Positions 13,309 through 24,185 of a stretch of DNA of 64,000 nucleotides are shown here, in pieces. The translations under genes were made by a program, and so were the position numbers. Source of the DNA: Candidatus Nitronauta litoralis (GTDB taxonomy: Bacteria; Nitrospinota; Nitrospinia; Nitrospinales; Nitrospinaceae); assembly GCA_015698285.1 (NCBI GenBank), contig CP048685.1, forward strand, positions 1,922,001-1,986,000. Reading direction: 5' to 3'. Positions within the stretch are counted from its first letter, which is position 1. Each line of letters opens with the position of its first letter. The notes beneath the pieces were generated by a model. It searched no databases, was not told the DNA's origin, and saw only the letters and a list, made by a program, of their open reading frames with translations.

Positions 13309-14586
13309 TCAGGAATTCATGGTTTTCATGAATTCGAGGTTGTTTTTGGTTTGTCCCATTCTTTGCAAGAGAAGCTCCATAGTATCATTAAGCCCCATAG
13401 GTTGTAAAACTTTTCTCAGAAGCCAGATACGTTGCAACTCTTCCTGATCAATGAGCAGTTCTTCTTTCCGGGTGCCTGATTTGTGAATGTCGATTGAGGG
13501 AAAAACACGCTTTTCAGCCAGTTTGCGATCAAGCACAATTTCCAGGTTACCGGTTCCTTTGAACTCTTCAAAAATTACGTCATCCATCCGGCTACCGGTG
13601 TCGATCAGAGCGGTGGCCACAATGGTGAGACTGCCGCCTTCCTCAAGATTCCGGGCCGCACCGAAAAAGCGTTTGGGCCTTTGCAGGGCATTGGAATCGA
13701 CACCACCGGAAAGCACTTTGCCGCTTGGTGGCACGATGGCGTTATAGGCGCGTGCGAGACGCGTGATACTGTCGAGCAGGATAACGACATCCTTTTTGTG
13801 CTCGACCAGACGCTTGGCTTTTTCGATGACCATTTCGGCCACCTGCACGTGGCGTTGTGCCGGCTCGTCAAAGGTGGAACTGATGACTTCACCGCGCACC
13901 GAACGCTGCATGTCGGTGACTTCTTCAGGCCGCTCGTCGATGAGCAGGACGATCAGGACCACTTCCGGAAAATTGGTGGTGATGCTGTTTGCGATGGATT
14001 GCAGCAACATCGTTTTACCCGTACGTGGCGGAGCCACGATCAGCCCACGTTGGCCTTTCCCGATCGGCGTCATCAAATCCATGATGCGTGCACTCAAGTC
14101 TGTGCAGGCCGGAGTTTCAAGCCGCAGGCGTTCTTCCGGGTAAAGCGGAGTCAGGTTATCGAACAGAATTTTGTCTTTGGTTTTTTCAGGATTTTCAAAG
14201 TTGATGGCTTCGACCTTGAGCAGGGCGAAGTAGCGCTCGTTTTCCTTCGGTGGGCGAATCTGGCCCGAAATGGTGTCACCGGTCCGCATGTCAAACTTCC
14301 GGATCTGAGAAGGCGATACATAAATATCGTCTGGACCTGGAAGATAATTATAGGTGGGTGCGCGCAGGAAACCGAAACCGTCTGGCAGAATTTCCAGCAC
14401 ACCCTGGCCGAACATCAGGCCATCTTTTTCTATCTGGGCCTGGAGTATCTTGAATATGAGGTCCTGTTTCCGGAGGCCACTGTGACCCTGAATTTTAAGG
14501 GTTTTGGCCATATTGGTCAGGTCCGAAATGGTTTTGGACTTGAGGTCCTCAATGTTCATTGCGGGTGGTTTTGTTGCGGTAGACAT
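13309..14586 (-). CDS. rho: transcription termination factor Rho
   Basis: Hexameric RNA helicase ATPase that ends transcription at Rho-dependent sites. The 425-residue protein begins with the Rho N-terminal helical region ([21 protein letters not shown]). It then has the OB-fold RNA-binding segment [30 protein letters not shown], Walker [14 protein letters not shown] near 180, and Walker [17 protein letters not shown] near 262. There is no long acidic or Asn/Arg-rich insert. It heads the rho-rpmE-prfA-prmC-murA cluster. A near-consensus promoter lies about 170 nt upstream, leaving an untranslated leader suited to Rho autoregulation, as known in other bacteria. Confidence 0.97.
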
Positions 14587-14757
14587 AAGCGAAATGGATT
14601 CTTTACGAAGGGTTTATAAAAGGAGATGTGCGGGATGAAGGGTAACGGAGTTTTTGCAGGTTTCCCGGAATTGAGTCCCGCCTATTATTGTGGGAAAAAC
14701 CAATCCGATGGGGATCAGGGGTTAATTTTGCAGGGTGATTCTTTGGGATACTTTGTT

Positions 14758-14786
14758 ACATTATCTGGTCCCTTTAAGTTTGTCAA
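14758..14786 (-). promoter_or_regulatory. sigma-70 promoter of the rho operon
   Basis: On the minus strand TTGACA (14786-14781) is followed after exactly 17 nt by TAATGT (14763-14758). This is a very good vegetative promoter pair facing rho. The start of transcription would be near 14750, giving a leader of about 165 nt. No other strong candidate lies nearer rho. Confidence 0.7.
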
Positions 14787-15130
14787 TCCCTTTCCCTCAG
14801 TTTTTTCAAGTTTTTGCGGGTCTATCTGGGAAATATTCGGGTCGTGAACAAAGAGGAGAGGTTGAGTCTTTTACAAAAAATAAACAACCGAAATTTAAAA
14901 ACTTTTTTGAATTTTTATTTTTGGGACTAAAAAAACTACCAAGTGCTCATGAAGCAATCCATAAGATACTTTGCCTTTTTTATGTAACCCGTTAATAGCG
15001 ATACTTGTAGGTTTCGATTTTTTTTTGATCTAACAATTCAGAATTATTTCCAGGTTAAATGGCTTTGGACATTTGAAGGCCCTTACTCAATTGTAGAATT
15101 TTTTTTGCGGACTGATTTGGACAAAAAGGG
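14787..15130. other. AT-rich intergenic stretch between divergent rho and chelatase promoters
   Basis: About 340 bp with long A and T runs and no coding signal. Short open frames at 14626-14847 and 14735-14995 have no ribosome sites and unlikely compositions. It separates the rho promoter from the Fur-type promoter on the other strand. Confidence 0.5.
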
Positions 15131-15184
15131 TTGACAACTTTTAAGAAAAAACCTAAATTAATTGAAATTGATTATCAACTTCAA
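15131..15184 (+). promoter_or_regulatory. sigma-70 promoter overlapped by a Fur-type palindrome
   Basis: TTGACA at 15131-15136, a 17-nt spacer and TAAATT at 15154-15159 form a promoter. Directly over its start region, at 15162-15184, lies a 23-bp palindrome. Its arms TTGAAATTGA and TCAACTTCAA flank TTA, and nine of ten arm positions pair. Its 19-bp core agrees with the classical Fur box at 13 positions by my alignment. Placement over the transcription start suits repression by an iron-loaded Fur-type regulator. A leader of about 180 nt follows before the exported chelatase-like gene. Zur or another FUR-family protein is equally possible. Confidence 0.65.
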
Positions 15185-15362
15185 TAGTGGGGCGTGGCTA
15201 TGTCCCTCAAAATATTCGTCTTCTAAAATTATGTTTCTATTTGTTTGGCATTTGTCTTAATTTGGCGGGCTTTATTTTTCAATACTCAATCAATGGTTTT
15301 TGTTAGGCCTCAATACCATTCCGGAGCACCACCAGGCCAAATTTTAAGCTGAGGAACTGAAT

Positions 15363-17063
15363 ATGTTTTCTGTCAAATTTCTGTTAACAATACTGGTAGT
15401 CTGGCTTTGTATTTCTCAATCCGCCCTGGCCACGCAACAGCAAAAAATTGGGTTTTTATTGCTGGCACCCGATCGGGGTCATCTGGGAAACCAGGAAATC
15501 GAAAATCTGTTTGACGAGTTCAGGAAAGATTATACGGCTTCCCTCGGCTATATCGGAAACGAATCACCAGGCGGACCAGATCGTGCTTACGGACCCTATA
15601 TTAACAGTAGCCTCGATGAACTGATCCAGATGGGTGTCCACAAGATTGTCGTGATCCCGTTATTTCTTTCACGGCATCATCCCAACCTCGCCTATGCGAA
15701 AAATCATATCTACAAGTACCATTCCCTGGTTTCCATTGAATGGGCTCCAGCTATGGCAAAGAGCTATCTCACGGCTCAGATATTTCTCGACCGAGTTAAA
15801 GAACTAAGCCAGAACCCTGAAAACGAACAATTAATTTTGCTCGGTATTGGTCCTGAAAATGATGTCTCTCTGGAAAAAATAGAAAAGGAATTGAAACCGA
15901 TCCTCGATTACGCCAAACGGGAATTGCCTTTCAAAGAGATTCAAACACAGTTGTACTTCAATTATGGTGCTGAAAAAGAATTACGCCAAAGGCACAACCA
16001 GTTGGTAGACCAGGAAATCATTAAAGCGGCGGCTAAAAAAGGCGATGCTATTTTAGTCCCTTTTGTTATTGGTCCCAGGTATTCCCATCAGATGTCATTG
16101 CGCTACTGGATCAGGGAAAAGTTTAAAGAGTACGATATCAAAATTGCTGATCAAGGGATCATTCCTCACCCCAACATTCAGCTTTGGCTAAGAAAGACTG
16201 CCAATGCCCGTATTGATATTTCTCCCCGGGAGGTCGGGGTTGTTGTCATGCCCCATGGTGCGCAAATTCCTTATAACGAGGCCATCGAAAAGGTGGTTGG
16301 ACCCCTTAAAGAAAAATACAGGATTGAAATGGTTTACGGGATGGCCGACGCGTTGTCACTTGCGGAAGCTGTAAAAACGCTGGAAGGGGAGGGATATCGG
16401 AAAATAATTGTGGTGAGGATGTATTCCCTTGAAGAACAGTTTCGGGATCAAACCGAATATATTCTGGGGTTGAGTGAAGCGCCTCCGAAAAGTCGACGAA
16501 GATCATCCCCTCCACCTCAGGTGCGGTCCGGTGCTGTATTTGTCACATTTGGAGGCTATGAAGAAGATCCTTTGATATGTCAGATACTGATGGAACGTGT
16601 AGAGGCGATCAGCCAAAACCCGTCGAAAGAACGTGTGATCTTCCTTGCCCATGGTGCCCGAAGCGACAGCCGCGACAAGGCCTGGCGTGACCTGATGGAA
16701 AAACATGCGGAATATATCCGCAAGTATACAGACACCCCGTTTCATTCCCTCCACGGTTTGACTGTGCGCGAGGACTGGCCGGATAAGCGGGAAAAAGCGA
16801 TAGAGGAAATCCGCCGTCTGATCTCACAGGAATCGGGCCAAATTCGAACCCTGGTGATTTCGAATCGTCTTTTTGGAAGCGGGCGATACGATGAATTTCT
16901 GAAAGGGTTGAAATTTGATATGAACCGGAGCGGTTTGGCTCCCCATGTCAACCTCACACGTTGGTTGGACCGGGGAATCCAGCAATCGCTTCAGAGTCCT
17001 CAAAAACTCAAGGGGCAGGCTCCAGGGTACGTGCCCGGGGAAACTGCTCCTGACGCCGGATAG
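15363..17063 (+). CDS. exported protein made of four CbiX/sirohydrochlorin-chelatase-like lobes
   Basis: A 566-residue protein with a signal peptide cleaved near residue 23 (after SQSALA). Four class II chelatase-like alpha/beta lobes follow: about 28-110 (IGFLLLAPDRG... VVIPLFLSRHHPN), 150-260 (LILLGIGPEND... ILVPFVIGPRYSHQM), 283-390 (VGVVVMPHGAQIPYNEA... IIVVRMYSL) and 435-560 (VIFLAHGARSDSRDKAW... TLVISNRLFGSGRYDEF). The chelatase-type HGA motif survives only in lobes three and four. CbiX/SirB proteins insert cobalt or iron into sirohydrochlorin in the cytoplasm, so export is odd; a metal- or tetrapyrrole-binding role in the periplasm is inferred. GAGGA lies 9 nt before the ATG. The Fur-type promoter upstream links it to metal supply. 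Confidence 0.75.
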   Translation: MFSVKFLLTILVVWLCISQSALATQQQKIGFLLLAPDRGHLGNQEIENLFDEFRKDYTASLGYIGNESPGGPDRAYGPYINSSLDELIQMGVHKIVVIPLFLSRHHPNLAYAKNHIYKYHSLVSIEWAPAMAKSYLTAQIFLDRVKELSQNPENEQLILLGIGPENDVSLEKIEKELKPILDYAKRELPFKEIQTQLYFNYGAEKELRQRHNQLVDQEIIKAAAKKGDAILVPFVIGPRYSHQMSLRYWIREKFKEYDIKIADQGIIPHPNIQLWLRKTANARIDISPREVGVVVMPHGAQIPYNEAIEKVVGPLKEKYRIEMVYGMADALSLAEAVKTLEGEGYRKIIVVRMYSLEEQFRDQTEYILGLSEAPPKSRRRSSPPPQVRSGAVFVTFGGYEEDPLICQILMERVEAISQNPSKERVIFLAHGARSDSRDKAWRDLMEKHAEYIRKYTDTPFHSLHGLTVREDWPDKREKAIEEIRRLISQESGQIRTLVISNRLFGSGRYDEFLKGLKFDMNRSGLAPHVNLTRWLDRGIQQSLQSPQKLKGQAPGYVPGETAPDAG

Positions 17064-17086
17064 CTCCCCTGTCCGGCGCTCAATTT
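17052..17086 (+). terminator. possible weak hairpin after the chelatase-like gene
   Basis: CGCCGGA and TCCGGCG arms flank the stop codon region, followed by CAATTTTC. The U-run is weak, so partial termination before the Pal-like gene is the most that can be inferred. Confidence 0.35.
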
Positions 17087-17115: not shown

Positions 17116-17982
17116 ATGAATCACCAAAAAATATTTAAAACAAATTCGGTCGTTCGTGACTTTTTTAGTGGAATCTTTTCACGGGGTCATCTGAGATTTT
17201 TAATGGTATTTTTTATTTCGTTCACTTTATCAAGCTGCGCCAAGACTCTGCTTCCTGAGGAAAGCAGGTTGCAGGGTAAAAACGCTCAGGTTTCATCGGA
17301 TCCATCCGAAGAAACAGTTGATGAGGAAGATTCTTTTGCCGAAGGATTCACCGCTGATTCCGGTCCGGATTCGCCAGGAATTATTGAAGAAGATATCGCC
17401 AGCGAATTTCCTCAACCATTTGCGGCCCGTGGAGATTTTTCCAAAGAAGGGAAACTAACCTCCTCTCACCCTTCCGGGAATCCATCTGCGGACCCTCTGT
17501 CTAGTAATCCATCTTCCGGTTTGAGTAAAAAGGATGAGGCTATGTTAGATCAGGAAGCGAGTAAATCTGAGGTGGCGGACTTATTTAACACCTCGCAATT
17601 TCCTGATAAGAAAAAACAAATCGCAAGGACCCTGCCTTTCAAGCCGACCCAGGATCTGGTTGATATCTTTTTTGAGTTTGACCAATATACTTTGAGCCGA
17701 GTGGCCCTTGATACATTAAGAAATAATGCTATGTGGCTGAAAGAACATCCTTCCACACGGGTTCAAATTGAAGGTCATTGTGACGAGCGGGGAACCAACA
17801 ACTACAATCTTGGGTTGGGGCAGCAGCGCGCTCTGGCGATCAAGAAATACCTGGTGTCGCTTGGAGTCGAACAGGAACGCCTTTACACGATGAGTTACGG
17901 AGAGGAGAAACCGTTTTGCTTTGAAAACGGTGAATCTTGCTGGAAGCTGAATCGTCGATCCCACTTTCGTATCGCTCCCTGA
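17116..17982 (+). CDS. Pal/OmpA-domain lipoprotein
   Basis: Outer-membrane lipoprotein anchoring to peptidoglycan. A long N-region and hydrophobic stretch end in the lipobox TLSSC with Cys41 as the likely lipidated residue. A Ser/Pro/Glu-rich spacer covers 42-175. The OmpA C-terminal domain covers about 178-288: FFEFDQYTLSRVALDTLRNNAMWL, VQIEGHCDERGTNNYNLGLGQQRA and RRSHFRIAP with the peptidoglycan-binding Asp/Arg pattern. The HCDERG motif is characteristic of Pal rather than other OmpA-domain proteins. The spacer is longer than in E. coli Pal. TolB/TolA genes are not adjacent. It may be co-transcribed with the preceding exported chelatase-like gene. Confidence 0.88.
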   Translation: MNHQKIFKTNSVVRDFFSGIFSRGHLRFLMVFFISFTLSSCAKTLLPEESRLQGKNAQVSSDPSEETVDEEDSFAEGFTADSGPDSPGIIEEDIASEFPQPFAARGDFSKEGKLTSSHPSGNPSADPLSSNPSSGLSKKDEAMLDQEASKSEVADLFNTSQFPDKKKQIARTLPFKPTQDLVDIFFEFDQYTLSRVALDTLRNNAMWLKEHPSTRVQIEGHCDERGTNNYNLGLGQQRALAIKKYLVSLGVEQERLYTMSYGEEKPFCFENGESCWKLNRRSHFRIAP

Positions 17983-19931: not shown

Positions 19932-20214
19932 TTCCGTATCTCTCTTCCTCCTCCTCCAAATCCGAACAGTTGATTGACATAATTTTTTCTGAGCGGATAA
20001 TCTTCCGTAATCTTTGGGGGAGATTACTTTTTGCAGGCGTCTGAGCGTGATAGCTCTGACTGCCGCGCCAATATTGGGAGAGGTCCACAATGAAAAAATT
20101 TCTACGCGAAGGTGCTGTTCTGTTATTAGCACTCTCGTTTTCAATGCCCGCACAGGCACAAACGGTTGAAGAACGATTAACAGCATTGGAAACATCGATG
20201 GCGAATGTAGAGTT
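19932..20214 (+). repeat. promoter, leader and signal-peptide duplication, copy 1
   Basis: This 283-bp segment is identical, base for base by my reading, to 21556-21838. It spans the promoter, the 5' leader and the first ~42 codons of the fibre-like gene. The downstream coding sequence then diverges, which suggests a recent duplication or gene conversion limited to the 5' end. Confidence 0.9.
19974..20027 (+). promoter_or_regulatory. promoter and leader hairpin of the first fibre-like gene
   Basis: TTGACA at 19974-19979, a 16-nt spacer and GATAAT at 19996-20001 form a strong promoter. Just downstream of the expected start, GTAATCT (20007-20013) pairs with AGATTAC (20021-20027), placing a hairpin at the very 5' end of the mRNA. 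Such a stem could protect the message. GGAGAGG precedes the ATG at 20090. Confidence 0.65.
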
Positions 20215-21451
20215 ACTGTCGACCCAGTTGTTTCAACTGTTTTCTGCCCTGCAGCCGGACATCGTTGCCATCTTAAATGCCCTGGCAACACAGCAGGGTG
20301 AAGTGGCGACCCTGCAAGCAGCGGTGACTGCTTTGCAATCTCAGGACACAACGCACAGCAATGACATCACGGCTCTGCAGGCCAGTCAATCGATACAGGA
20401 TACCGATATCACGACACTGCAAACGGATGTCGGTTCTCTGCAAACTAATGATGCAGCTCAGGACACGACAATTTCCGGATTGACCACGGATGTGGGTGAC
20501 CTTCAAACCCGCTTCAAAGGGGTCACTCGCTCTAAAGATACTTTGTTGTTTACCGACATGAACCTTCAAGTGGTCTCTGGTTCGGGAAAAACAGACGGTG
20601 CCGTGAATGGTCGAGGAAATGTCATCATAGGCTACAACGAAGACATCTTCCCGTTTCTTGGGGGTGGATTGCCAGCCAGCGACAAAACCGGTTCGCATAA
20701 TTTGATCGTTGGCCAGGGGGTGAATTACTCCAGCTTTGGCGCGCTTGTAGCCGGATTGAATAACGTATCTAGCGCCGAATACGCTTCCGTCACCGGCGGG
20801 GAGCGCAACCAGGCCACTGCTGATTTTTCCAGTATAGTCGGAGGATCGTTAAACGAGGCCACAGGCACACATTCGAATGTCAGCGGAGGCAATCGCAACA
20901 TTGCTTCCCATATTTTCAGTAGTGTCAGCGGTGGACTCCGCAACCTGGCCTCAGGTCAGTATTCTTCGGTCACTGCTGGTCAACTCAATGTCGCTTCTGG
21001 CAACTTTTCTGCAATCAATGGTGGATTGAGAAACAGTGCCTCCGGAAATAGCTCTAGTGCAAGCGGAGGTCAGGATAACAGAGCGTTCGGTTTTTATACC
21101 AGCGTGAGCGGGGGTATTGATAACCTGGCAAGCGGTGACAATTCAGTTGTAGCGGGTGGAAGTCTCAACGTAGCATCTGGATTAAATTCGAGTATAACGG
21201 GTGGCGGAAGCAACCTTGCTTCCAGTGAAGGAGCAAGCGTAACCGGAGGCCATAACAATGAGGCAAACACTGAGGCCTATGCCAGTGTAAACGGAGGATT
21301 CAATAATACAGCGTCTGGTTTAAACTCTGCGGTCAATGGTGGCCGAGAAAACCTGGCCATAGGAGAAAGCTCTACTGTGGGAGGTGGCTCTCAGCGGACC
21401 ACATTTGGGCTGGTAGACTGGCGCGCTGGAGGTTTATTTGAAGGTTTTTAA
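20090..21451 (+). CDS. exported fibre-like protein with coiled coil and 15-residue SVSGG-type repeats (copy A)
   Basis: A 453-residue protein with a signal peptide cleaved near residue 23 (after PAQA). Residues 24-135 are a coiled-coil-type stretch rich in LQ, T and D (DITTLQTDVGSLQ). A globular module of about 140-235 carries MNLQVVSGSG, IIGYNEDIFPF, SDKTGSHNLIVGQG and YSSFGALVAGLNN. The rest is about thirteen 15-residue units of the form SxVSGGxxNxASGxx, like the left-handed parallel beta-roll head repeats of trimeric adhesins (YadA/Hep_Hag type). No YadA translocator barrel or other anchor is visible at the C-terminus, so it is probably secreted or held by a partner. It has its own promoter and terminator. 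Surface or stalk function is inference. Confidence 0.75.
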   Translation: MKKFLREGAVLLLALSFSMPAQAQTVEERLTALETSMANVELLSTQLFQLFSALQPDIVAILNALATQQGEVATLQAAVTALQSQDTTHSNDITALQASQSIQDTDITTLQTDVGSLQTNDAAQDTTISGLTTDVGDLQTRFKGVTRSKDTLLFTDMNLQVVSGSGKTDGAVNGRGNVIIGYNEDIFPFLGGGLPASDKTGSHNLIVGQGVNYSSFGALVAGLNNVSSAEYASVTGGERNQATADFSSIVGGSLNEATGTHSNVSGGNRNIASHIFSSVSGGLRNLASGQYSSVTAGQLNVASGNFSAINGGLRNSASGNSSSASGGQDNRAFGFYTSVSGGIDNLASGDNSVVAGGSLNVASGLNSSITGGGSNLASSEGASVTGGHNNEANTEAYASVNGGFNNTASGLNSAVNGGRENLAIGESSTVGGGSQRTTFGLVDWRAGGLFEGF

Positions 21452-21482
21452 AGCTACAACAAATTTTTTAGAATTATTTCAA

Positions 21483-21519
21483 GGGAAGGCGTTTCGTGCG
21501 CCTTCCCCTTTTTTTTATT
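21483..21519 (+). terminator. intrinsic terminator of the first fibre-like gene
   Basis: A 9-bp perfect stem (GGGAAGGCG and CGCCTTCCC, loop TTTCGTG) is followed by CTTTTTTTTTATTT. The same stem and loop reappear at 24284-24308 after the second gene. Confidence 0.9.
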
Positions 21520-21555
21520 TACACTATATTTCATTGTGTTGATTTGTTCTACCCT

Positions 21556-21838
21556 TTCCGTATCTCTCTTCCTCCTCCTCCAAATCCGAACAGTTGATTG
21601 ACATAATTTTTTCTGAGCGGATAATCTTCCGTAATCTTTGGGGGAGATTACTTTTTGCAGGCGTCTGAGCGTGATAGCTCTGACTGCCGCGCCAATATTG
21701 GGAGAGGTCCACAATGAAAAAATTTCTACGCGAAGGTGCTGTTCTGTTATTAGCACTCTCGTTTTCAATGCCCGCACAGGCACAAACGGTTGAAGAACGA
21801 TTAACAGCATTGGAAACATCGATGGCGAATGTAGAGTT
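21556..21838 (+). repeat. promoter, leader and signal-peptide duplication, copy 2
   Basis: Identical to 19932-20214 at an offset of 1624 bp. The first difference downstream is within codon 42 or so of the gene, after which substitutions become frequent. Confidence 0.9.
21598..21651 (+). promoter_or_regulatory. promoter and leader hairpin of the second fibre-like gene
   Basis: TTGACA (21598-21603), 16-nt spacer, GATAAT (21620-21625) and the same GTAATCT/AGATTAC hairpin as copy A. The two genes should therefore respond alike. Confidence 0.65.
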
Positions 21839-24185
21839 GCTGTCGACGCAGTTGTTTCAACTGTTTTCGGCCCTGCAGCCGGATATTGTCACCATAATCA
21901 ATGCCCTGGCAACACAACAGGGTGAAGTTGCTGCGCTTCAAGCCTCTGTGACAGGCTTACAATCCGATGTGAGTGCTTTGCAGACAGGGCAAACGGCGTT
22001 GCAAACAAGCCAGGGGACGCAGGACACGGCGATCACCGCGTTGCAAACTTCTGATGGCACACAAAATACCAGCATCAGCGCACTGCAAGCCAACGATACA
22101 ACACAGGACAGCATTATCACCACACTGCAATCGAGTCAGACAACACAGGATACGAACATCGCCACCAACACCGCCGATATCACCATTAATGCGAATGACA
22201 TTGCGGCGATCGTGGTGCCGGATATCTCCGGCCTGACCACGGATGTGACTGAACTGCAGACCCGTTTCACGGATGTGACACGAGATACGGATGCCAACGG
22301 CAATGACCGGTTGCTGTTAACCGGCATGAACCTGCAGGTGGTCTCCGGTTCCGGAGCAACGGACACCCTTATAACCAATGGCCTCGGCAATTTGATTGTC
22401 GGTTATAACGAAGACATAACCGGGAGTGGGCCGCCGGCCCCGCCGCCCCCATTTAGCGATAAAACCGGTTCACACAATCTTGTGGTGGGCAAAGGACTGA
22501 ACTATTCCAGTTTTGGCGGTATTGTTGCGGGACACAACAACGTTATAGGGGGGCATTATGCCTCCGTAACAGGAGGGCAGGCAAACCAGGCCCTGGGAGA
22601 CTGGTCCAGTGTGAGCGGAGGAAGTCAAAACACGACCGTTTTCGGCCTTGGAAACTTTTCCAGTGTGAGCGGTGGATTTAATAACCTGGCCTCTGGAATT
22701 CATTCCAGTGTCAGTGGTGGATTTGATAACGCGACCTCTGGAAGCTTTTCCAGTGTGAGTGGTGGAAGTGAAAACACGGCCTCTGGAATTGTTTCCAGTG
22801 TGAGCGGTGGACGTAATAACACGGCCTCTGGACATTGGTCCAGTGTGAGTGGTGGAAGTGGTAACGAGGCCTCTGGTGATAGATCCAGTGTCAGCGGTGG
22901 AGAAAGTAACGAGGCCTCTGATAATAATTCCAGTGTGAGCGGTGGTTTGGAAAACACGGCCTCTGGTGATAGATCCAGTGTGAGCGGTGGACGTAATAAC
23001 CTGGCCTCTGGAAATTGGTCCAGTGTGAGTGGTGGTTCTTATAACACGGCCTCTGGTCATAGATCCAGTGTGAGCGCTGGATGGACTAACACGGCCTCTG
23101 GATTTGAATCCAGTGTGAGTGGTGGACATAACAACGAGGCCTCTGGAGTAGAATCCAGTGTGAGTGGTGGAGTAGATAACACGGCCTCTGGGAGAACTTC
23201 CAGTGTCAGCGGTGGATGGCAAAACTCGGCCTCTGGAGTAGAATCCAGTGTGAGCGGTGGATTAAGAAACGAGGCCTCTGATGGTAATTCCAGTGTGAGC
23301 GGTGGAGTAGATAACACGGCCTCTGGTTTTATTTCCAGTGTGAGTGGTGGAGTAGATAACACGGCCTCTGGAATTCGTTCCAGTGTGAGTGGTGGAAGTG
23401 GTAACGAGGCCTCTGGAGGAGAATCCAGTGTGAGTGGGGGTCAGGACCTGAGCGCAGTTGGCCTAAATGACTGGCAAGGGGGAAGTTTAATTGCAGATGT
23501 TGCCGAGCTGCAAACCCGATTCACCGGTGTTTCGCGCAGCGGTGATGTGTTGCTGTTCGATAGTATGAACCTGCAGGTGGTGTCCGGCTCAGGAACAACG
23601 GACGGTGCTGTAAACGGTCGTGGAAATATCATCATCGGTTACGATGAAACCATCTTTCCGTTTCTGGGAGGCGGACTGCCTGCCAGCGATAAAACCGGCT
23701 CGCATAACCTGGTTGTCGGCAAGGGGTTGAACTATGCAAGCTTCGGCGGGATTGTTGCCGGACTCGACAATGTTTCCGGAGCAGAATACGCCTCGGTCAC
23801 GGGCGGTGAACGCAATCGGGCGACAGGCAATTTCTCCAGTATTTCAGGAGGTCAGTTTAACGAAGCCATGGGTGTCAACTCCAGCGTCAGTGGAGGTGGG
23901 GCCAACATCGCTTCCGGGTCCCGCTCCAGTGTCAGTGGTGGGAATGGAAACGAAGCTTCCGGTATCATGGCCAACGTCAGTGGTGGTGTCGGAAACACAG
24001 CTTCCAACTCGGTTTCCAGCGTCAGTGGTGGTGGCGGAAACACCGCTTCCGGAGTCAGTTCCAGCGTCAGTGGTGGGTTTCAAAACGAAGCTTCTGGACT
24101 TTATTCCAGCGTCGGTGGTGGATCCAGCCGGTCTGCAGTGGGGAACAACAACTGGGCTGCGGGCAGTCTGCTTGAACTGAATTGA
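21714..24185 (+). CDS. exported fibre-like protein with two modules and an expanded 15-residue repeat array (copy B)
   Basis: An 823-residue paralogue of the gene at 20090 with an identical signal peptide. Order: coiled-coil-like LQTxDTxI stretch (24-180), first globular module (about 185-285, with PPAPPPPFSDKTGSHNLVVG), a block of seventeen near-identical 15-residue SVSGG units (about 317-571), a second coiled/globular module (about 585-690) closely resembling that of copy A, and about seven more divergent units to the end. It reads like an internal fusion of two copy-A-type genes. No beta-barrel anchor or sortase motif is seen. Predicted beta-roll fibre outside the cell. Codon use in the central block is strikingly uniform, indicating recent expansion. 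Confidence 0.75.
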   Translation: MKKFLREGAVLLLALSFSMPAQAQTVEERLTALETSMANVELLSTQLFQLFSALQPDIVTIINALATQQGEVAALQASVTGLQSDVSALQTGQTALQTSQGTQDTAITALQTSDGTQNTSISALQANDTTQDSIITTLQSSQTTQDTNIATNTADITINANDIAAIVVPDISGLTTDVTELQTRFTDVTRDTDANGNDRLLLTGMNLQVVSGSGATDTLITNGLGNLIVGYNEDITGSGPPAPPPPFSDKTGSHNLVVGKGLNYSSFGGIVAGHNNVIGGHYASVTGGQANQALGDWSSVSGGSQNTTVFGLGNFSSVSGGFNNLASGIHSSVSGGFDNATSGSFSSVSGGSENTASGIVSSVSGGRNNTASGHWSSVSGGSGNEASGDRSSVSGGESNEASDNNSSVSGGLENTASGDRSSVSGGRNNLASGNWSSVSGGSYNTASGHRSSVSAGWTNTASGFESSVSGGHNNEASGVESSVSGGVDNTASGRTSSVSGGWQNSASGVESSVSGGLRNEASDGNSSVSGGVDNTASGFISSVSGGVDNTASGIRSSVSGGSGNEASGGESSVSGGQDLSAVGLNDWQGGSLIADVAELQTRFTGVSRSGDVLLFDSMNLQVVSGSGTTDGAVNGRGNIIIGYDETIFPFLGGGLPASDKTGSHNLVVGKGLNYASFGGIVAGLDNVSGAEYASVTGGERNRATGNFSSISGGQFNEAMGVNSSVSGGGANIASGSRSSVSGGNGNEASGIMANVSGGVGNTASNSVSSVSGGGGNTASGVSSSVSGGFQNEASGLYSSVGGGSSRSAVGNNNWAAGSLLELN
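22662..23426 (+). repeat. in-frame 45-bp tandem repeat array, 17 units
   Basis: Seventeen consecutive 45-bp units encode SVSGGxxNxASGxxS. The AGTGTGAGYGGTGGA and RCGGCCTCTGG parts are nearly invariant, while codons 7-8 and the last two or three codons of each unit vary. Units with NEAS and NTAS or NLAS alternate irregularly. Loss or gain of whole units would keep the frame. A long antisense open frame (22470-23222) is a by-product of this periodicity. Confidence 0.95.

Follow-up and report, generated by a model that had tools for sequence, protein, structure and literature searches.

A near-perfect palindrome lies over a promoter-like sequence in the genome of Candidatus Nitronauta litoralis, upstream of a gene for a chelatase-like protein of 566 aa. 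Which regulator might such a site serve, and what might the protein do? We addressed these questions by analyzing the stretch of DNA containing the locus (64,000 nucleotides, hereafter the window), together with other stretches of the genome and with loci from related bacteria. An earlier note on the window had proposed a Fur-type palindrome placed over a sigma-70 promoter, controlling the exported chelatase-like gene and probably the gene of a Pal-like lipoprotein, and hence a metal-regulated envelope function.

Promoter, palindrome and transcription unit

Features of the locus are listed in Table 1. The 23-bp near-perfect palindrome of the earlier note is present at 15162-15184, with 10 of 11 pairs complementary, and it extends to 25 bp with 11 of 12 (ATTGAAATTGATTATCAACTTCAAT, i.e. 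ATTGAA-A-TTGAT-T-ATCAA-C-TTCAAT, centred on 15173). A shuffled 64-kb window would contain 0.25 palindromes of such quality on average (12-bp arms, 11 or more pairs), and the actual window has one, the palindrome described here. Within the 662-bp stretch 14701-15362, its quality corresponds to P = 0.0065. The TTGACA-17-TAAATT promoter is likewise where the note had placed it, with the palindrome directly after its -10 hexamer: the palindrome begins 2 nt past this hexamer, and thus overlaps the promoter, a layout found again at several orthologues. Taken alone, the promoter is weak evidence, because 6 promoter-like sites are observed in the region for 5.3 expected by chance, but the promoter-then-box layout recurs at orthologues. 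The exact 19-mer forming the core of the palindrome occurs once in the 3.92-Mb genome.

Table 1. Features of the locus, in positions of the window.
Feature	Position	Strand	Remarks
-35 hexamer TTGACA	15131-15136	+	Read from the sequence; G014, G007, L074 and L078 also have TTGACA just 5' of their Fur-like box
-10 hexamer TAAATT (4/6)	15154-15159	+	Spacer of 17 nt to TTGACA
Predicted full operator, 25-bp near-perfect palindrome (11/12 pairs)	15161-15185	none	
Predicted 19-bp Fur-box core, GAAATTGATTATCAACTTC	15164-15182	none	13/18 to the Fur consensus
Predicted 5' leader, ~197 nt	15166-15362	+	Putative start site, placed from the -10 hexamer
Predicted exported protein of 566 aa; by our reading, four CbiX/SirB-type modules in tandem	15363-17063	+	
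Terminator-like hairpin, CGCCGGATAG-CTCCC-CTGTCCGGCG	17054-17078	+	Overlaps the chelatase stop codon; weak T tail
Pal-type OmpA lipoprotein	17116-17982	+	TIGR02802 above cut-off; membership in the Fur unit unsupported

The predicted leader is unusually long compared with that of a relative, genome G062. A riboswitch or structured leader was considered and rejected: an Rfam search of 14500-15500 gave no match up to E = 1, including to the cobalamin riboswitch, and no unusual fold was found in the leader (z = 0.6).

We then considered how far the unit would extend. The downstream gene codes for a true Pal (TIGR02802 score of 128.3, for a cut-off of 125.35), with homologues in 10 of the 12 family genomes. 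It lies on the same strand as the chelatase-like gene after a gap of 52 bp, so that a single Fur operator might drive both as an operon, which is compatible with our best explanation. However, a hairpin with a 10-bp stem separates the two genes at the chelatase stop codon, albeit with only a weak T tail, and in two relatives with the chelatase-like gene (G007 and G014) Pal is not near it but on another contig. The control of Pal proposed in the earlier note is therefore unsupported, and we regard such an operon as rather improbable.

Fur-like sites in the window, the genome and its relatives

Leaving its centre aside, the core agrees with the Fur consensus at 13 of 18 positions, and no other site in the window reaches 13/18. 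The site was also scored with a matrix of 14 boxes from other loci, leaving the window site out. These boxes were picked among consensus matches beside iron genes or orthologues, and the Fur consensus has therefore shaped the matrix too; with this matrix, the core ranks first at 21.6 bits, the next site of the window reaching 15.1 bits, and none of 60 shuffled windows attained its score (best, 20.6 bits). By the plain consensus score, the site has p = 0.041 within its 776-bp intergenic region (shuffles).

By inspection, two 7-1-7 boxes that overlap with an offset of 6 bp can be seen in the 21 bp at 15163-15183 (15163-15177 and 15169-15183, with 12/14 and 10/14 matches), and Desulfovibrio is reported to have overlapping boxes with a shift of this size (PMC545781). 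The delta-proteobacterial dFUR box, WTGAAAATNATTTTCAW (PMC545781), is matched at 14 of 16 positions at 15162-15178, again by inspection. Like the boxes of Fur-repressed promoters, the site is a 19-bp inverted repeat over a promoter, of a kind that it shares with FecIR/TonB operons; it differs from an E. coli-type Fur promoter in that its host genome has three FUR-family proteins and that its binding by Fur is a prediction.

The earlier note had proposed to look for the motif at known iron or zinc genes of the genome. In the chosen genome stretches that were read for Fur-type sites, sites of this kind were found before three operons: two of FecI-FecR-TonB-receptor type (L063 and L067) and one of DUF2325/TonB-receptor type (L032). 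The sequence GANNNTGATNATCANNNTC has two exact matches in the genome, the window site and the site of this last operon. A site with one mismatch precedes a 153-aa gene at 2546562 (L119:1501-2053), of unassigned family; a protein of this type (cluster c14) has its own Fur-like site in G014, and genes of this type adjoin the chelatase-like gene in two Nitrospira loci (L083 and L097). The shorter motif WTGATNATCAW was rejected as a Fur marker when used alone: it has 31 sites in the genome and, of those centred on AT that were read, several lie between genes but few precede iron genes.

The gene run at L032:3664-7386 (~2742.2-2745.9 kb of the genome) contains several Fur-like boxes. Its order is a ferredoxin-like 87-aa gene, DUF2325, a 150-aa gene and a TonB receptor; the ferredoxin-like and DUF2325 families reappear before the chelatase-like gene in G014.

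Conservation before orthologues was one of the points on which the earlier note had staked its proposal. The chelatase-like gene is present in 4 of the 64 genomes of the order, and in all four of these Nitrospinota genomes a Fur-box-like site precedes the gene itself or its operon. Apart from the window site, these are GAGATTGATAATCATTTTC in G014 (shuffle p = 0.001), GAATTTGATTTTCATTATC in G007 (p = 0.004) and GATAGTGATTATCATTATC in G062 (17/18 to the Fur consensus, p = 0.001), which together, window excluded, give a Fisher combined p = 8e-7. Over the 19 loci with enough upstream DNA, some of them related to each other, the combined p was 5e-12, with 11/19 at p<0.05. Upstream stretches were hand-picked from ORF maps, the operon head being used for G014. 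There, the box heads a run of genes that are, in turn, ferredoxin-like (as we judge from the cysteine pattern), DUF2325 and chelatase-like, and it sits between this operon and a divergent FUR-family gene. No box was found directly before the gene at many Nitrospira and some gammaproteobacterial relatives, in which the gene may be part of longer operons.

Taking together the consensus, the matrix and the sites before orthologues and iron operons, a Fur-type operator over a sigma-70 promoter is supported, and the sequence at 15161-15185 is very likely of Fur type. As a predicted site, the operator itself is strongly supported as an ordinary new member of the Fur repertoire.

Which FUR-family protein would bind it? 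The genome has three such genes, and the one at 3480887 is clearly the most Fur-like. The paralogues at 2516941 and 2574245 (L041 and L042) share 59% identity with each other and ~29% with Fur. One of these divergent paralogues might bind the site as a Zur, a PerR or a second iron sensor, and the gene at 2574245 adjoins NifU-like, PepSY and TonB-receptor genes. This is unlikely in our view: similar boxes precede the FecI/FecR and TonB-receptor iron operons, the divergent FUR gene of G014 is closest to the Fur-like protein (41%, versus 28-32% to the paralogues), and, by inspection, the site is a poorer fit to the consensus sequences of Zur and PerR. No clear box was found before any of the three fur genes (best match, 11/18).

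The 566-aa protein and its neighbours

The 566-aa protein has a CbiX Pfam match above cut-off, and a CbiX family match was found in 24/24 members scanned. In an AlphaFold2 model (24 sequences, pLDDT 88, pTM 0.85), the beta-alpha pattern repeated in its secondary structure appears as four CbiX-type modules, a division that is our own reading, as the tool reported no module boundaries. Among Foldseek matches, SirB came first (TM-score of 0.70 by target), followed by CbiK-P, DR2241 and ferrochelatase. FetB of P. gingivalis (PDB 9b86), which we take to be the same protein as IhtB, was at rank 19. As modelled, the protein is thus of class II chelatase fold (CbiX/SirB/CbiK). It begins with a signal-like helix, which suggests that it is exported.

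We next compared the protein with the SirB/CfbA class II sirohydrochlorin chelatases, of which SirB is the closest in structure and has a metal site made of His10, Glu43 and His76 (PMC11301274). Three histidines (His269, His298 and His430) are invariant in 24/24 sequences. Two of them, His298 in module 3 and His430 in module 4, lie within HG motifs resembling that of SirB His10, and His430 aligns with the His10 motif. In module 1, the position of His76 is occupied by Asp in 20/24 sequences. In comparisons that aligned the His10 and His76 positions, the complete His10-Glu43-His76 set was not found within one unit in any module. As the full His/Glu/His site is absent from every module, ordinary metal insertion appears unlikely and catalysis uncertain; handling of iron or heme iron in the periplasm is more likely.

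Neighbours were examined at 27 named loci from Nitrospinaceae, Nitrospira, Manganitrophus-like bacteria, Gammaproteobacteria and one Methyloversatilis bin. In varying combinations, TonB receptors, FecI/FecR, PepSY, multicopper oxidase, MacB-type ABC and Fur genes are found nearby. Heme-type TonB receptors above the curated cut-off adjoin the chelatase-like gene in L076 and L078, and a siderophore-type one does so in L093; in the genome of the window, no TonB receptor passed the heme-family cut-off. HmuY domains are encoded near the gene in L074, L075, L077 and L080. As a co-occurrence marker, HmuY was rejected as uninformative: HmuY-domain proteins are found in 62/64 genomes of the order, usually in two copies, and so do not track the chelatase-like gene.

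In some Nitrospira, another CbiX-type protein, shorter at 327 aa, is encoded just downstream of the four-module gene and a TonB receptor (L087:8888-9871 and L088:8929-9858).

The family match and the rank of SirB as best structural match would also suit a cobalt or nickel sirohydrochlorin chelatase of cofactor synthesis, regulated by iron through coincidence. The signal-like helix, which suggests export, argues against such a protein, as do the incomplete SirB site, the lack of an Rfam cobalamin riboswitch match in 14500-15500, and neighbours of iron uptake, no cobalamin-synthesis genes being noticed among those sampled; it is quite unlikely.

Known systems offer partial likenesses to an exported protein handling iron. 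CbiK-P, the periplasmic cobalt chelatase of Desulfovibrio vulgaris (PDB 2xvx), shares the class II fold, but is a single two-domain unit, whereas the 566-aa protein is about twice as long and has no complete metal site. IhtB of P. gingivalis, an exported protein of CbiK-like fold, is encoded next to a TonB receptor; it has been proposed to extract iron from heme, and is reported as not regulated by PgFur (PMC10913741). It consists of one CbiK-like unit, in contrast with the four modules, as we read them, and the Fur-type operator of the protein studied here. The de-chelatase HmuS of Bacteroidota is related to class I chelatases; its gene accompanies those of a heme TonB receptor and HmuY, and it was shown to remove iron from heme (PMC12583661). 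Relatives of the 566-aa protein have similar neighbour genes, but the 566-aa protein has a class II fold and HmuS is of the large CobN type (class I); their roles may be alike. We found no open-access paper describing the exported CbiX family to which the protein belongs, and the novelty would reside in this predicted four-module, Fur-linked protein rather than in the operator.

Proposed regulation and role

An unrelated repressor acting on the palindrome, or a chance origin of the palindrome in AT-rich intergenic DNA, is very unlikely: the surroundings are AT-rich and the Fur consensus alone gives the site p = 0.041 in its own intergenic region, but the site recurs independently before orthologues and iron operons of the same genome, the promoter-box layout is conserved, and a palindrome of this quality would rarely arise by chance in the 662-bp stretch.

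We have good confidence in our reading of the locus as a Fur operator governing an iron-responsive, putatively exported protein of chelatase fold. With iron in ample supply, Fur carrying Fe(II), most likely the 3480887 protein, would bind 15161-15185 and cover the -10 end and the putative start site, so that transcription would be blocked; this repression step also draws on established Fur biology. When iron is scarce, Fur would leave, and the gene at 15363 would be expressed. Its product would be exported, and would work in the periplasm on iron imported by TonB receptors, binding or demetallating an iron chelate, for which heme is the best candidate. This last step is suggested by the fold and by the neighbours in relatives.

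Of the earlier proposals, control of the predicted exported chelatase-like gene by the operator is thus supported, the motif being kept before orthologues. The metal-regulated envelope function stands as to the metal, which would be iron, whereas "envelope" is better put as periplasmic acquisition of iron or heme iron. The product probably acts in such acquisition; that it removes iron from heme is, by analogy with the systems above, a tentative proposal. It is equally tentative to see in it the founder of a family of four-module, Fur-controlled, periplasmic proteins of class II chelatase fold, extracting iron from heme or another chelate in the role of HmuS. If so, this family would be the functional counterpart, among nitrite- and metal-oxidising bacteria, of the unrelated HmuS of Bacteroidota, and handling of heme iron by the protein would represent a second, independent solution for the periplasmic release of iron from heme.

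More generally, these predicted sites provide a concrete set of Fur targets for Nitrospinota, marine nitrite oxidisers in which iron regulation is apparently little studied, and they point to an uncharacterised family of putatively exported proteins that, in several phyla, is associated with TonB, HmuY and FecIR genes.

Elsewhere in the window, at 20090-24185, two adjoining genes share an N-terminus (MKKFLREGAVLLLALSFSMPAQAQTVEERL...) and look like a local duplication; both carry long repeats resembling the head repeats of trimeric autotransporters.
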